Shown in pieces: positions 50,324 to 61,907 of a stretch of 64,000 nt of DNA. The stretch is taken from contig JAFS01000001.1 in assembly GCA_000526255.1 (NCBI GenBank), forward strand, positions 434,001 to 498,000. The letters run 5' to 3'. Each line of letters starts with the position of its first letter. Within the stretch, counting starts at the first letter, position 1. The notes below the pieces were generated by a model. That model was not told where the DNA came from, made no database searches, and saw only the letters and a program-made list of their open reading frames with translations. This DNA is from Verrucomicrobia bacterium LP2A. GTDB lineage: Bacteria; Verrucomicrobiota; Verrucomicrobiia; Methylacidiphilales; Methylacidiphilaceae. The position numbers and the translations under genes are program-made.

Positions 50324-51679
50324 CTATTGGGAGGAGGGAAGCAGGAGCCGGACAAGCAGAAAAGCGTTGAGCCCGATGACGGCGGCGCAGATGAGCCATC
50401 CAGCGATCCTTATTCCAAGCGAGTTCCGCAGTGGCCCCATCCAGCGGCGGCTCTGGGTGAAGAGGAGGAGGGGGATGAGCGCGAAGCCGATGCCGAAGCT
50501 TAAGATCACCTGGGAGGCGACGAGGATCTTGGTCGTGTTGATGCCCGACGCGATGACCAGAACAGCCGGCACCATCGTGACCAGCCGCCGGACCCAGATG
50601 GGGATGCGGAAGCCGACAAACCCCTGCATGATGACCTGACCGGCGAGTGTCCCCACCGCCGAGGAGGAGAGACCGGAGGCGAGCAGCGAAAGGGCGAAGG
50701 CCCCCGCGGAGAGCGCGCCCAGCATGGGCGATAGGGCACGGTAGGCCTGGAGGATTGCGTTCCCTTCGCCGGAGGGCGAGCCCGCAAAGGCCGCCGCCGA
50801 CATCGCGAGCATCGCAAGGTTGATCACCCCGGCGAGGGTCATCGCCAGGGAGGCATCGAGGAAGGAGAGGCGGATCAGCTTCCGCTTCTCCTCGATTCTC
50901 CGGGCGGGAATCCGCCCTTGGGTGAGAGCCGAATGGAGGTAGATTGCATGCGGCATCACGGTCGCTCCCAGGATGCCTGCGGCCAAATAGGCTCCTTCGG
51001 TGCCGGGCAGGGAGGGAACGAGCAGGCCGCGAAGGCTCGCGGAGGGCGAGGGATGGATCCAGAAAAGCTCGAAGGCGTAGCAGGCGGCGATGAACCCCAC
51101 GAAGGCCGTCAGAAGCACTTCGAGATAGCGGAAGCCCCCGGGCCGCAGACCCAACATTAGGAAGGAGAGAACGCCGGTGAGAAGGGCGCCGATCCCCAGC
51201 GGAATCCCGAAGAGGATCTGAAATCCAATTGCTGCGCCGAGGAACTCGGCCAGGTCGGTGGCGATCGCCATCAGCTCGGCTTGCAGCCAGTAGGCGATCC
51301 GCAGGAACGGGTGGGGAAGCGCATCCCGGATGCATTCGGGAAGGTTCTTCCCGGTGGCGATGCCGAGCTTGGCCGAGAGACCTTGCGCGAAGAGCGCGAT
51401 CAGGTTTGCCCAGAATACCACCCAGAGAAGCTGGTAGCCGTAGCGGGTTCCGCTCTCGATGTTGGTCGCGTAGTTGCCTGGGTCGATGTAGGCGATCGCC
51501 GCGATGAACGCGGGCCCCAGGAAGGGAATGAACCGGTCGATCCTTCCTGTCGCCTCCCCGGAGAGAACGGTCCCAGCGCTCTCGCGTACCCAGGCATCCC
51601 ATCCCTTCCTGGAGGAAGACGCCCCCGACTCGGAGTCCCCTTGTGTCCGCGATCGAAGACCAGAGGGATCGTTGCTCAT
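50324..51679 (-). CDS. mntH: NRAMP-family Mn2+/divalent metal transporter MntH
   Basis: 451 residues and about 11 membrane helices. The metal-site motif AYIDPGNYATNIESG in helix 1 and TVMPHAIYLHS in helix 6 are the Asp-Pro-Gly-Asn and Met-Pro-His signatures of proton-coupled NRAMP importers. Its ATG overlaps the stop of the upstream DtxR/MntR-type repressor by 4 bases, so repressor and transporter share one message. Mn2+ is the likely substrate, with Fe2+ possible. Confidence 0.93.
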   Translation of the reverse strand: MSNDPSGLRSRTQGDSESGASSSRKGWDAWVRESAGTVLSGEATGRIDRFIPFLGPAFIAAIAYIDPGNYATNIESGTRYGYQLLWVVFWANLIALFAQGLSAKLGIATGKNLPECIRDALPHPFLRIAYWLQAELMAIATDLAEFLGAAIGFQILFGIPLGIGALLTGVLSFLMLGLRPGGFRYLEVLLTAFVGFIAACYAFELFWIHPSPSASLRGLLVPSLPGTEGAYLAAGILGATVMPHAIYLHSALTQGRIPARRIEEKRKLIRLSFLDASLAMTLAGVINLAMLAMSAAAFAGSPSGEGNAILQAYRALSPMLGALSAGAFALSLLASGLSSSAVGTLAGQVIMQGFVGFRIPIWVRRLVTMVPAVLVIASGINTTKILVASQVILSFGIGFALIPLLLFTQSRRWMGPLRNSLGIRIAGWLICAAVIGLNAFLLVRLLLPSSQ

Positions 51680-52431
51680 CGACCGCCTGCCGTCCGGTCT
51701 CGTCCTCTCGGTTTCGGGTGGGGAGAAGCAGGGCCCGGAACGATCACGACCAGGAGATGCAAGGCGAGGAGCGTTGGAACCAGGAAGCGGCTCCCGGCGA
51801 CCAGGAGCGAGACGCCATCGGGATGGGTGTCGGCGACCTCGATCTCCGTCCCGGGAAGGAGGCCGAGCTTTTCCACAAGGTTGAGCGCATCCTGGTCCTG
51901 GAGAGTCACCCGGCAAATGGTCCCCCGGCTTCCCCGGGCGAGCCGGGCCAGCGGGGCAAGGTGCCGGTCTTCCTCCAGAGCCAGCTCCGAGGTCGGGATC
52001 GGGTCGCCGTGCGGATCCCGCTCGGGGTGGGAGAGGAGCTCGGCCACCCTCTGCTCGAAGCGCTCGCTGATCACATGCTCGAGCGCCTCAGCTTCCTCGT
52101 GGACCTCGTCCCAGCGGTAGCCGAGCATGCGGAAGAGGAAAACCTCGAGCAGCCGGTGGTGACGGACGAGCTCAACCGCAATCCTCCGGCCCGACTCCGT
52201 CAGACGGACCGCTCGATAGGGGGCCCGTTCCACCAAGCCTTCTTCGGCCAGCTTCTTGAGCATCCCGGTGACCGAGGCCGGCCGGACCCCGATGCGGTCC
52301 GCCAGAATCTGAGTAGTGGCGCCCCTGGGCGCGTGGTCTAAAAGAAAAATCTGCTTCAAGTAATCCTGCTGGGAGTGGCTCAGGCTGGACGAACCTTTGT
52401 CGCCCGCGTTTTCCACAAGGCCTTGCTTCAT
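51676..52431 (-). CDS. mntR: DtxR/MntR-family metal-dependent repressor
   Basis: 251 residues. Winged helix at the N terminus (DYLKQIFLLD, ILADRIGVRPASVTGMLKKL), the metal-binding dimerisation domain with HHRLLEVFLFRMLGY and EALEHVISERFEQRV, and a C-terminal FeoA/SH3-like domain (LLPGTEIEVADTHPDG). These repressors bind DNA when loaded with Mn2+ or Fe2+. The ATG at 52431 is preferred to a TTG at 52440. A DtxR-like site lies just upstream, suggesting control of its own operon with mntH. Confidence 0.9.
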   Translation of the reverse strand: MKQGLVENAGDKGSSSLSHSQQDYLKQIFLLDHAPRGATTQILADRIGVRPASVTGMLKKLAEEGLVERAPYRAVRLTESGRRIAVELVRHHRLLEVFLFRMLGYRWDEVHEEAEALEHVISERFEQRVAELLSHPERDPHGDPIPTSELALEEDRHLAPLARLARGSRGTICRVTLQDQDALNLVEKLGLLPGTEIEVADTHPDGVSLLVAGSRFLVPTLLALHLLVVIVPGPASPHPKPRGRDRTAGGR

Positions 52432-52444
52432 GCCCGACAAAAAG

Positions 52445-53462: not shown

Positions 53463-54326
53463 CTAGCCTCGGCTCCCGGCCAAGGCCGGCTCCCGCCCGA
53501 GGAGAGCCAGGGCAAGCCGCCGCAGCGCCGCCAGCCCGGAGAGCGGATCGGGCGTCTCGGGCGGAAGAACCACCTCGAGCAAGAAGACCCCGGGAAAGGA
53601 GCTCCGGCGCAGGGCGGCGAGCCAAGCCGGCCAGTCGATCGTCCCCTCTCCGGGAGGAAGGTGGTCGTCGGAGGTCCCCCGATTGTCATTGACATGGAGG
53701 GCGATCACTCGGTCCGCGAGGAGCTCGTAAAGTCGTTCCAAGGGCCAGGAGCGCCACAAGAAGCAGTGGCCTGTGTCGAAGCAGAGCCCCACCTCTTCCC
53801 TGGGATAGGGCTCGACGAGCTCGAGCAGGAGATGCGGATCGGCGGTCAGGAGATGGGGCAGCAGAGTCTCGATGGCGAGGGCAACGCCATGGAAGCGCGC
53901 TTCCCGGTGGAGAAGGGAAAGAGTCTTCCGTAACGAGTCGATTCGTGCCGGGCGCTCCGCTTCCGGCATCCGGGAAAGCTCGGCGGCGGAGCCATGGAGC
54001 ACCAGAGTTCGCGCCCCCACGGCTGCGGCGGTGCGCACCGCTTCGGTCAGCAGGGCGACGGTGTTCTTTCGGCGAATCGGATCGGGCTCGCTGGGATCGG
54101 CCTCCGCCGAGTAGGGAGCGTGGAAGCTCCCCGCCCGCAGGCCGAGATCGCCCAGCTGCTTCCGGACGGCCGCCACCTCTTCGGGATCGCGCCAGTCGAA
54201 GGGTGTGCGGTAGAGGGGGTCCCCCGTCCAGAGTTCGACCGCATCGAAGCCCGTCCGGGCGATCAGCGAAAGCACCTCGCGGATCGGCTTACGATAGAAA
54301 ACCCCGGTCGAGAGCCCGATCTCCAT
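53463..54326 (-). CDS. Sugar phosphate isomerase/epimerase-like TIM-barrel protein
   Basis: 287 residues of the AP-endonuclease-2-like fold (xylose isomerase-like TIM barrel). Metal-binding positions are visible in AIETLLPH, GLCFDTGHCFLW, HVNDNRGTSDDHLPPGEGTIDW and FLLEVVLPPE. The start at 54326 follows AAAGGGATGG and lies 38 bases inside the primase-like gene upstream. Substrate is unknown; such proteins act on sugars, inosose or hydroxypyruvate. Cotranscription with the upstream gene is likely but a shared function is not evident. Confidence 0.85.
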   Translation of the reverse strand: MEIGLSTGVFYRKPIREVLSLIARTGFDAVELWTGDPLYRTPFDWRDPEEVAAVRKQLGDLGLRAGSFHAPYSAEADPSEPDPIRRKNTVALLTEAVRTAAAVGARTLVLHGSAAELSRMPEAERPARIDSLRKTLSLLHREARFHGVALAIETLLPHLLTADPHLLLELVEPYPREEVGLCFDTGHCFLWRSWPLERLYELLADRVIALHVNDNRGTSDDHLPPGEGTIDWPAWLAALRRSSFPGVFLLEVVLPPETPDPLSGLAALRRLALALLGREPALAGSRG

Positions 54327-55734
54327 CCATCCCTTTCCCGTGATAGTCCGCGAGATTGAAGCCACAGAAGGGCCGCCAGCAGTATCCTTTTTCCTGGTGG
54401 CTGATGCAATTGAGATCGATCTCGCGATCGATCCCCGTTCTCACCAGCCCCGAAAAGAGCCGGACGTAAAAACGGGCGCGCGTCGCCGCTTCGTACTTCT
54501 CCCAAAGGCCCCCCCAGCCATGGTCCTCTTCGTACCGTGAGCAGACCAGGCCGGCGATTTGGGAGGGCTCCCAACCGGAGGCGAGCAGCACGCGGGTCAG
54601 CGCTTGCAGGTTGGTCGGCTTCAACAGGTGGGGGTTGGGGTCGCGGAGGCAGTGAGCGATGCAGGGCGGAAGCCCGCTCGGGCTGTCGGTCCGGTCGTTC
54701 CGGATCTCCTTCACCTCGCGGTGAGCCCGGGCCAAGGCGGACTCCTCATAGTCCGCAAGCCATCTGAGGATCGATGGAGCGGCATCGGGGATTTCGACCG
54801 AGATCTCCTCGGCCAGCCGGGCGGCCCGCTCCCAATCGACCCGGATCTCCAAAAGCTCTTCGAGCCGGGAGTCCGGGAATCGGGGCAGGAGGAGCGGAAT
54901 CGGGAGCTCCCTGCCGGCCCGTTCCCCATATTTTTCCCAGAGGACGCGGTGCTTCTGGTAGGCCGAAAAGGGACAGCGGGTCGCCCGACGGGGCAGCGGA
55001 TCGCCGAAGAGGGAGAGATCGAGCGAGACCGCTTCGCGACGACCGCTCGGCCCGATTCGTCCGACGGCAACGTCGGTCGGAACGGCCGGGATCCGCTCGA
55101 ACCCGTCGAGGGAGGAAGACTCGTATTCGTAAAAGATCCGGTGGACCAGATGCTCGAAGAGGCGGCCTAAGGTCTCGTAAGCCGCTGCCTCCGGTGGGGG
55201 AAACGCACGACCGAAGCGGGCTCCGAAGCGCTCGCCCCATTCGATCAGGTGCGGGGAAGCCGAGCCATGGGCGGCCAGCAACGCGAAGGCAGCCGAACGC
55301 TTCGGAATCCGGAAGACGAAATGGTATCCCTGGCCGGTCAGGATGGTCAGCGGCTCAATCCCGTAATCTCCCAAGCAGCGGCGGATCGTCCGGTAGAGCG
55401 GTTCGATCCTGGAGAAGACCTCCGCCGGCCGGAAGAAGACTTCGGCGGGGTAGTCCCAGTTGACGTATTCGATGTCGAGGATTCCCAGGAGCGCGGTTCG
55501 ATCCCAGATCGAGCGGAGAATATCCGCTCCGGCCTCGAGCAGATCCGTAAAGTGCTTTTTCTCCACCGAAGCATGGGGCTCGGCCGAAACGCCTTGCCCC
55601 ATCGCGACACCATACCCGACCAAGTAGATGCAGGAAAAGGCTCCGGGTTCTTCGGGCATTCCGCCGCAATACTCGGCGATCCGCCGGCGCACCGCGGTGT
55701 GGGCGTAGTACTCCCGAATGGTGCTGATTCCCAT
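54289..55734 (-). CDS. Putative archaeo-eukaryotic primase-like PriS-PriL fusion
   Basis: 481 residues, not a family I can name from memory. The N-terminal half has AEP-primase-like motifs: Asp87-Ile-Glu89 in ILDIEYVNWD, Gly-Tyr-His138 in TGQGYHFVF, and Asp239 in SLDLSLFGDP followed by basic RRATRCPFSAYQKHR. The C-terminal part resembles the iron-sulfur domain of PriL: LPPCIAHCL (Cys358), GLVCSRYEEDHGW, then three cysteines in LNCISHQEKGYCWRPFC (443, 452, 457). Together this reads as a catalytic PriS-like domain joined to a PriL-like FeS domain. The start at 55734 follows AAGGT. The stop overlaps the isomerase start. No helicase or phage genes are nearby. Confidence 0.55.
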   Translation of the reverse strand: MGISTIREYYAHTAVRRRIAEYCGGMPEEPGAFSCIYLVGYGVAMGQGVSAEPHASVEKKHFTDLLEAGADILRSIWDRTALLGILDIEYVNWDYPAEVFFRPAEVFSRIEPLYRTIRRCLGDYGIEPLTILTGQGYHFVFRIPKRSAAFALLAAHGSASPHLIEWGERFGARFGRAFPPPEAAAYETLGRLFEHLVHRIFYEYESSSLDGFERIPAVPTDVAVGRIGPSGRREAVSLDLSLFGDPLPRRATRCPFSAYQKHRVLWEKYGERAGRELPIPLLLPRFPDSRLEELLEIRVDWERAARLAEEISVEIPDAAPSILRWLADYEESALARAHREVKEIRNDRTDSPSGLPPCIAHCLRDPNPHLLKPTNLQALTRVLLASGWEPSQIAGLVCSRYEEDHGWGGLWEKYEAATRARFYVRLFSGLVRTGIDREIDLNCISHQEKGYCWRPFCGFNLADYHGKGMDGDRALDRGFLS

Positions 55735-60211: not shown

Positions 60212-61471
60212 CTAAATTCCGGAGATTCCTACGGCGCTCAATCCGGGCTTGAACCGGAATGAGCCGCTTCGGCGGGTTCCTGCTGCTGGCGACTTGATGC
60301 CGCTCACTTCACAGGCGATCCGGGCGTGTCCCGCCCTTAGAACATTGATCGCGCCGACCAAATCGGCGTTTTCCTCAAAACCGCACTCCACACACATGAA
60401 CTGGGCTTGCGTCCGACGGTTGTCCGCCGACCCATGGCCGCAACACGGACAAGTCCGGCTCGTGTTCTGCGGCGGCACGACTAGGAGCCAGCCGCCTCTC
60501 CACTCCATCTTGTACTCCAGCTGCCGCCGGAACTCGAACCAGCCTTGGTCGAGGATGGACTTGTTCAGTCCAGGCTTGGCCCGAACGTTCCTTCCCGGTG
60601 CATCCGCCGCGCCCGAAGCCGACTGGGACATGTTCCGCACCTGCAACTCCTCGATGCACACCATCGCGTGGTTTTTGCTGATCGTGGTCGTGACTGTGTG
60701 CAGGGAGTCGCGGCGGGCATTGCCGATGCGGGAATGAATCTTCTGGATTCGGGCCTTGGCCTTCTTCCAGTTGTTGCTGAACTTGATCTTGCGGCTCATG
60801 GCCTGCTGCGCCTTGCACAGGGCGGTTTCATGCCGCTTGAAGCTGTTGAGCGGCGCATAAAACGTGCCGTCCGAGAGGGTGGCAAACCGTGCCACACCCA
60901 TGTCGATGCCGACCGCGCCGCCCTTCGGGATGGGTTGCTCGACTTCGCGCTCGGTCTGAATGCTCACGTACCACTTGCCGCAGGACTGGCTGACGGTGAC
61001 GTTCTTCACCGTCCCAAGCGCCTCCCGGCTGAGGCGGACCCGCAGCCAGCCCAGCTTGGGCAGGAACAGGCGGCTATTCGCCTGGTCGAGCTTGATCTAT
61101 TTCGGGTCGGGGTAACGGAAGCGATCCGACTGGCCCTTCCTCTTGAAGCGCGGGAAGTCGGCCCGCTGGGCAAAGAAGTTACTGTAGGCCCGCTCCAAAT
61201 CCTTGAGCGCCTGTTGCAAGGGATGAACAGGCGCATCGGCCAGCCAAGGCGCGACACGCCCGGAAGGCATGGGCTCGCCGTTACGCCATTTCGTAAGTTC
61301 CTTGCACAGCCCGGCGTAACTGAGCTTCTTCTCTCCGGCATCGTAACGCGCCATCTGCAAGTTCAACGCCTCGTTGAACACAACCCGGCACGAGCCAGCG
61401 AAGCGGCGCATTTGCCGCTCTTGCTGGCCGTCTGGCCGCAGTTGGTACTGGAAGGCTTGAAGTCGTTGCAT
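60212..61471 (-). pseudogene. tnpB: IS605-type TnpB RNA-guided nuclease with one amber codon
   Basis: 419 codons in one frame interrupted only by TAG at 61097-61099 (after RFRYPDPK, before IKLDQANSR). RuvC residues are intact: Asp in VGIDMGVARFATL, Glu in MVCIEELQVRN, Asp in ENADLVGAINVLRAG; the zinc finger is CPCCG...CVECG. TAG probably replaced CAG. TnpB proteins cut DNA using a guide RNA made from the element's right end. The protein is likely inactive unless TAG is read through or translation restarts. Confidence 0.85.
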
Positions 61472-61907
61472 GCCTCAATCACACTCTTGGTCTATTAGCA
61501 ATGACAACGATATTCGACACGGGCGGCATTGCGTTTTCAAGATGCACGTTCATTTGGTCTTCGTGGCGAAATACCGCCGCAGAGTGTTCGATGGCGATGC
61601 CATCGAGCGGCTTCGCCCCATCTTCGCCAAGACCTGCGCCGATTTCGAGGCACAACTGATTGAGATGGACGGCGAGGACGATCATGTTCACCTGCTTGTG
61701 GAGTATCCGCCAAAGGTGGCTGTCTCCAATCTCGTGAACAGTCTCAAGGGCGTTTCCAGCCGCCTGTTGCGCAAGGAACGGCCAGACATCCAGAAATGCT
61801 ACTGGAAGGGCGTGCTGTGGTCGCCGTCCTACTTTGCCTCTAGCTGCGGCGGTGCGCCGATTTCCATTATCCGCCAGTACATCGAACAGCAACAGACGCC
61901 TCACTGA
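61470..61907 (+). CDS. tnpA: IS200/IS605 TnpA, Y1 HUH transposase
   Basis: 145 residues. HUH motif in DDHVHLLVEYPP and catalytic tyrosine in IIRQYIEQQ are present; KMHVHLVFVAKYRRRVF is the conserved first strand. It catalyses single-strand excision and insertion at TTGAC-like sites. The gene looks intact and could also mobilise the second copy at 63379. It diverges from tnpB with a 2-base start overlap. Confidence 0.93.
   Translation: MPQSHSWSISNDNDIRHGRHCVFKMHVHLVFVAKYRRRVFDGDAIERLRPIFAKTCADFEAQLIEMDGEDDHVHLLVEYPPKVAVSNLVNSLKGVSSRLLRKERPDIQKCYWKGVLWSPSYFASSCGGAPISIIRQYIEQQQTPH

Follow-up and report, generated by a model that had tools for sequence, protein, structure and literature searches.

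A chromosomal AEP primase-polymerase with a four-cysteine domain and an endonuclease IV-like partner gene: a possible excision-repair pair

The window examined for the current report, a stretch of 64,000 nucleotides from the methane-eating Verrucomicrobia bacterium LP2A, carries adjacent genes for a primase-polymerase of the archaeo-eukaryotic primase (AEP) superfamily and for a TIM-barrel protein that resembles endonuclease IV (Endo IV). The fold of the AEP and the pairing of the two genes are documented below, and from this fold and gene context we infer that the pair might constitute an excision-repair module, an interpretation to which we assign a probability of roughly one half. The primase-polymerase belongs to a family that is apparently undescribed; a literature search of incomplete coverage found no paper on it.

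The AEP gene and its catalytic domain

The gene for the AEP primase-polymerase family protein occupies positions 54289..55734 (-) and specifies 481 amino acids from its ATG, an assignment that draws on the translation, an alignment, a structural model and fold matches. On its 1.29-Mb contig the gene sits at 488-490 kb, and its context is chromosomal. An N-terminal AEP domain (residues ~1-335) is followed by a C-terminal four-cysteine domain (residues ~340-468). The single protein yielded no match to Pfam, NCBIfam, PHROGs or PDB sequence models, and the family alignment consists of 62 assembled relatives from Verrucomicrobiota, Acidobacteriota, Elusimicrobiota, Auribacterota, Hydrogenedentota and the Caldiserica and Chloroflexi MAGs; the counts of cysteines and motifs given here are over 62-63 sequences.

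Three AEP motifs, nearly universal across these members as D-x-E, G-x-H and an Asp followed by R...R-x-P-F-S...K, can be read in the N-terminal domain. Motif I, D87-I-E89, is encoded by the codons at 55468..55476 (-), and D-x-E occurs in all but two of the 63 members; motif II, G134-Q-G-Y-H138, lies at 55321..55335 (-), with H138 present in all but one of the 63; and motif III, D239 with the basic stretch R250...R253-x-P-F-S-x-Y-Q-K261, spans 54952..55020 (-), where alignment A4 shows no variation at D239, R250 or R253. The stretch at motif III appears to resemble the D...IRxPxSxHxK segment of PriS. The initial annotation of this DNA had named D87-x-E89, G136-Y137-H138, D239 and the cysteines 358, 443, 452 and 457, and had recognized the order of AEP motifs in the N-terminal half. 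All of these residues are found at those positions in the translation and are invariant among five congeners, and the AEP order extends to the wider family, in which D87, E89, G136 and H138 are at least 90% conserved over 62-63 members, a degree of conservation that, together with the invariance of D239 in A4, is far beyond chance. Motif I is altered (D-x-D, E-x-D) in two Acidobacteriota members, L054 and L055, and the motif II His of L054 is replaced by Gln, as it is in PolpTN2.

Structure prediction, which had been proposed as a check on the annotation, returned an AEP palm: AlphaFold2 reached a pLDDT of 92.1 and a pTM of 0.92 with the 62-sequence alignment, as compared to a pLDDT of 34 with the five close congeners only. 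The top nine rows of a Foldseek search against the PDB are all AEPs, as are the top 43 rows of the VIA-align comparison, which run from Z 16.6 downward and include Prim-PolC (6sa0; Z 16.6, rmsd 3.5, 253 aligned residues), LigD-Pol (2fao; Z 15.7), CAPP (7nqe; Z 13.3) and the human and archaeal PriS (Z 12.3 and 11.8, respectively). By modeled fold and by motifs, the N-terminal two thirds of the protein is an AEP palm, for which template-dependent polymerase or primase activity is predicted. In the model this domain most closely resembles Prim-PolC and LigD-Pol, both of them repair AEPs, and PriS is more distant. The earlier description of a PriS-like half holds for the AEP fold and not for PriS in particular, the Pfam model of which (PF01896) matched nothing in the protein, among its relatives or elsewhere in the genome.

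The four-cysteine domain and the question of a PriL-like primase

The first of the four conserved cysteines, C358, closes an LPPC motif (L355-P-P-C358) and is encoded at 54661..54663 (-), as seen in the translation and in the comparison of 63 members; the other three, C443, C452 and C457, form a cluster at 54364..54408 (-) with the pattern D-x-N-C-x-S-H-Q-E-K-G-Y-C-x4-C and are lost together with C358 in the members that have no cysteines. Among the 63 sequences, 44 have four cysteines, three have three, 15 have none, and one, which is cut by a contig end, has a single cysteine. A member of the A clade described below (L035) lacks all four through a loss confined to its own lineage. As judged from these comparisons, the four-cysteine domain is real and is conserved as a unit, and because its cysteines are retained or lost together they are most likely ligands of a single metal or Fe-S cluster. 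The divergent relatives without cysteines include L036, L039 and L093, most of which have GGH at motif II; they occur as two converging genes in a Verrucomicrobiota family (f31) and as a tandem pair in a Hydrogenedentota genome.

The resemblance of this domain to the C-terminal domain of PriL (PriL-CTD) bears on an alternative in which the protein is a PriS-PriL-like primase with a PriL-type Fe-S domain, whose de novo primers rescue stalled replication forks while the TIM-barrel protein only removes nearby lesions. The PPC start with the first Cys inside it, as in the PF04104 domain, the order of the four cysteines and the order of the helices are all like those of PriL-CTD; PF04104 is the Pfam family matched by the most C-terminal domains, with 4 of 42 members and a best E of 0.015; a viral protein named PriL ranks fifth in a BFVD search; and PriS folds are matched at Z ~12. 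Against this stand the lack of a statistically sound match to PriL, the gap-filling nature of the AEPs with the closest folds, and the lack of an adjacent helicase, and we consider such a fork-rescuing primase rather unlikely. The PF04104 matches, in a few members, lie between E 0.015 and 0.059, and two sets of ten C-terminal fragments gave no match to that family. Comparisons of the four-cysteine domain with human PriL and with the corresponding region of PolpTN2 scored like shuffled sequences, and neither hhalign to human PriL nor a search of the C-terminal profile against the PDB gave a significant result. The list of PDB folds is filled by the N-terminal domain, and the missing PriL rows there are thus uninformative on the C-terminal domain. 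What survives of the PriL-like FeS half proposed in the initial annotation is the set of four conserved cysteines, the LPPC motif and the order of these elements; homology to PriL is not demonstrated.

The adjacent TIM-barrel gene

Directly downstream of the primase-polymerase gene and on the same strand is the gene for the TIM-barrel partner (53463..54326 (-)), the likely ATG of which, at 54326, gives a 38-bp overlap between the two genes. Its identification comes from Pfam (PF01261, E 2e-39), from nine ligands of the Endo IV type, from a PDB match and from adjacency. The nine ligands, H82, H124, E166, D197, H200, H224, D233, H235 and E264 (numbered from a GTG at 54365), are counterparts of the nine of Endo IV in a comparison with the genome's own Nfo, the assignment being made from what we take to be the ligand list of the Endo IV trinuclear site. 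Across 29 partners eight of the ligands are invariant and H200 is at least 90% conserved. The best PDB match of the partner, MJ1311 (E 2.8e-41), keeps all nine. These features make the partner a putative metal hydrolase of the Endo IV type and a candidate phosphodiesterase. Its scores are at most 38 bits for nfo (TIGR00587; cut-off 129.65) and at most 54 bits for CbiR (NF041277; cut-off 105), and since it falls under both cut-offs its substrate may not be DNA. The genome holds a separate, true Nfo that is distinct from the partner.

These scores lead to a second alternative, that of an AEP-fold nucleotidyltransferase working with a CbiR- or IolI-like TIM barrel in cofactor or RNA metabolism. 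The TIM-barrel superfamily does include CbiR and sugar epimerases, and CbiR is the best NCBIfam match, under its cut-off, for several of the partners; but the partner keeps all nine Endo IV ligands, several of which are missing from the epimerase-like IolI in the PDB alignment, and every close match to the AEP fold is a nucleic-acid polymerase, which together make a role in small-molecule or RNA metabolism improbable.

The order of primase-polymerase and TIM barrel recurs in the loci of Methylacidimicrobium, in other Verrucomicrobiota, in both Acidobacteriota branches, in several Elusimicrobiota and in the Caldiserica and Chloroflexi MAGs. Some members of the family have no adjacent TIM barrel and instead have a second AEP paralogue, and a few have neither in the stretch that was read. 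The "ordinary operon" described initially is incomplete as to the next gene, which is a conserved Endo IV-like partner. Further along in the window (50324-52440) is an Nramp-like metal transporter, recognized from its translation, followed by a metal-dependent repressor in which Pfam recognizes a FeoA domain. Three genomes of a sister genus, g2 (loci L089-L091 in G011, G009 and G007), carry an orthologue of the TIM barrel without the primase-polymerase. In one congener (G005, L006/L007) a single locus carries damage to both genes: the reading frame changes near residue 397, and a deletion runs what is left of the primase into the mid-portion of the TIM barrel. In this genome the pair looks dispensable and appears to have been lost together.

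Distribution of the family and its tandem paralogues

Within its own taxonomic family the gene is confined to Methylacidimicrobium (74-92% identity), and the sister genera searched are without it; the survey of Methylacidiphilaceae suggested in the initial annotation thus found one genus that carries the gene, with the conserved partner as its next gene. A scan of the contigs of GTDB genomes located 21 loci, in Methylacidimicrobium, Elusimicrobia, Erginobacter (Auribacterota), Hydrogenedentota, Acidobacteriota and the Caldiserica and Chloroflexi MAGs. Profile searches detected the family in 9 of 241 genomes of Verrucomicrobiota (its own included), 3 of 199 of Acidobacteriota, 15 of 199 of Elusimicrobiota and both of the two Hydrogenedentota genomes. 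The distribution is wide and patchy.

The claim that the gene is chromosomal, rather than part of a plasmid, a phage or a CRISPR locus, is borne out by the length of its contig and by searches of phages, plasmids and IMG/VR, in which no relative of the primase-polymerase was found, and of PADLOC, which gave no match for the window's protein. An IS200/IS605-like element, in which TnpB-like ORFs adjoin a Y1-transposase-like ORF as read from their translations, is present at 60212-61907 of the window. That the family represents a mobile-element or defence-associated AEP stranded on chromosomes is very improbable, for although its patchy distribution across phyla, the element ~5 kb away in the window and the near-confinement of bacterial PrimPol-PV1 AEPs to mobile elements (PMC5862659) would favor such an origin, these database searches were negative, and the neighbors of the relatives are ordinary chromosomal genes at the loci read, with no helicase or integrase partner seen.

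In Auribacterota, one unclassified bacterium and many Elusimicrobiota, a tandem AEP paralogue lies directly downstream, in place of the TIM barrel (L064-L070, L016-L018, L011); one Hydrogenedentota genome has divergent AEP paralogues elsewhere in the genome. We refer to the two members of such pairs as the A and B copies. Both keep the active-site motifs, and for some of the family the four-cysteine domain is restricted to A; most B copies are without cysteines, as for example in Elusimicrobiota, where the B copy has none of the four but has D-x-E, S-G-x-H and the Asp. The B copies group apart from the A copies in the tree with support of 94/82 and 98/73, a split that suggests an old duplication, though it is a point where long branches meet in a tree rooted only at its midpoint. 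It is conceivable, and we put it forward tentatively, that the family is a new chromosomal clade of Fe-S AEPs existing in two forms, one paired with an Endo IV-like enzyme for excision repair or repriming and the other an A/B pair of AEPs, perhaps a heterodimer in the manner of PriS and PriL.

Proposed function of the gene pair

In the excision-repair module that we propose, the TIM-barrel enzyme would incise DNA, or clean its 3' ends, where a base is missing or other damage has occurred. The short gap or stretch of single-stranded DNA left behind would be bound by the AEP, which would fill or re-prime it by means of the site formed by D87, E89, H138 and D239, and the four-cysteine domain might help in binding DNA, as PriL-CTD and PriCT domains do. 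The proposal presumes that DNA is the substrate of both proteins, that the AEP acts in gap filling or repriming, that the four cysteines hold an Fe-S cluster and that the two proteins cooperate physically.

The genome encodes its own DnaG, and a role as the replicative primase was rejected on this ground: with DnaG present, replication priming by the AEP is not needed, and a function in repair is the better fit. In mycobacteria, Prim-PolC takes part in base excision repair, in which it associates with enzymes of that pathway (PMC5663958) and fills short gaps (PMC5663958, PMC7442782), and the reconstituted mycobacterial repair is most efficient with EndoIV (PMC5663958). The closeness of the Prim-PolC fold, together with this gap filling linked to Endo IV, makes a repair or repriming pair of an AEP and an Endo IV-like enzyme the best supported reading. 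The conserved active site of the AEP, the recurring gene order, the nine ligands of the partner and the joint damage in G005 also speak in its favor. No ATP-dependent DNA ligase (PF01068) was found in the genome, which leaves the mycobacterial pathway without its LigC half, and there is no ligase or Ku among the neighboring genes scanned. Counting against a repair pair are the Nfo already present in the genome, the occurrence of the TIM barrel without the primase-polymerase in the sister genus g2 and the existence of family members without an adjacent TIM barrel.

If the proposal is true, a chromosomal four-cysteine AEP and its Endo IV-like partner would represent a further instance of AEP-based excision repair, one without a dedicated ATP-dependent ligase. 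The protein would also offer a compact one-chain model for studying the debated role of the Fe-S domain of primases, and the joint loss of the four cysteines in some members would provide natural comparisons for that role.

Comparison with known systems

The archaeal and eukaryotic PriS and PriL share with the protein described here the AEP palm (Z ~12), the D-x-E, H and D motifs and the order of four cysteines starting from PPC. They differ in being separate subunits that serve replication, in the lack of a PF01896 match and the marginal PF04104 matches of a few relatives, and in the spacing of the last two cysteines, which are five residues apart here. In human PriL the last two Cys ligands are ~40 residues apart. 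PriL-type domains are placed with archaeal and eukaryotic replication in a published survey (PMC5862659). The CAPP and PrimPol-PV1 proteins are also bacterial AEPs, usually with a helical C-terminal domain; unlike them, the present family has neither a CRISPR locus nor a mobile-element context at the loci read, nor a match to PriCT in Pfam.

A chain in which an AEP is fused to a PriL-like region is already known from PolpTN2 (PMC3973330), encoded by the Thermococcus plasmid pTN2, whose C-terminal region likewise bears cysteines (PMC3973330, PMC5862659). PolpTN2 differs in its archaeal plasmid origin, its much greater length, its additional PriCT-1 and winged-helix domains, the Gln that replaces the motif II His and the lack of a detectable sequence match to the four-cysteine domain.

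The partner shares with Nfo, CbiR and MJ1311 a TIM barrel and the nine ligands of the trinuclear site; it scores below the curated cut-offs for both Nfo and CbiR and is distinct from the Nfo of its own genome. The closest comparison for the AEP itself is with Prim-PolC and LigD-Pol, which have the same fold and the highest Z scores (16.6 and 15.7). The identity to these proteins is ~11%, and the present protein differs from them in its extra four-cysteine C-terminal domain and in having no ligase or Ku among the scanned neighbors of its gene. For Prim-PolC, a working partnership with endonuclease IV during base excision repair has been published (PMC5663958); in the present family the operon partner is itself Endo IV-like.
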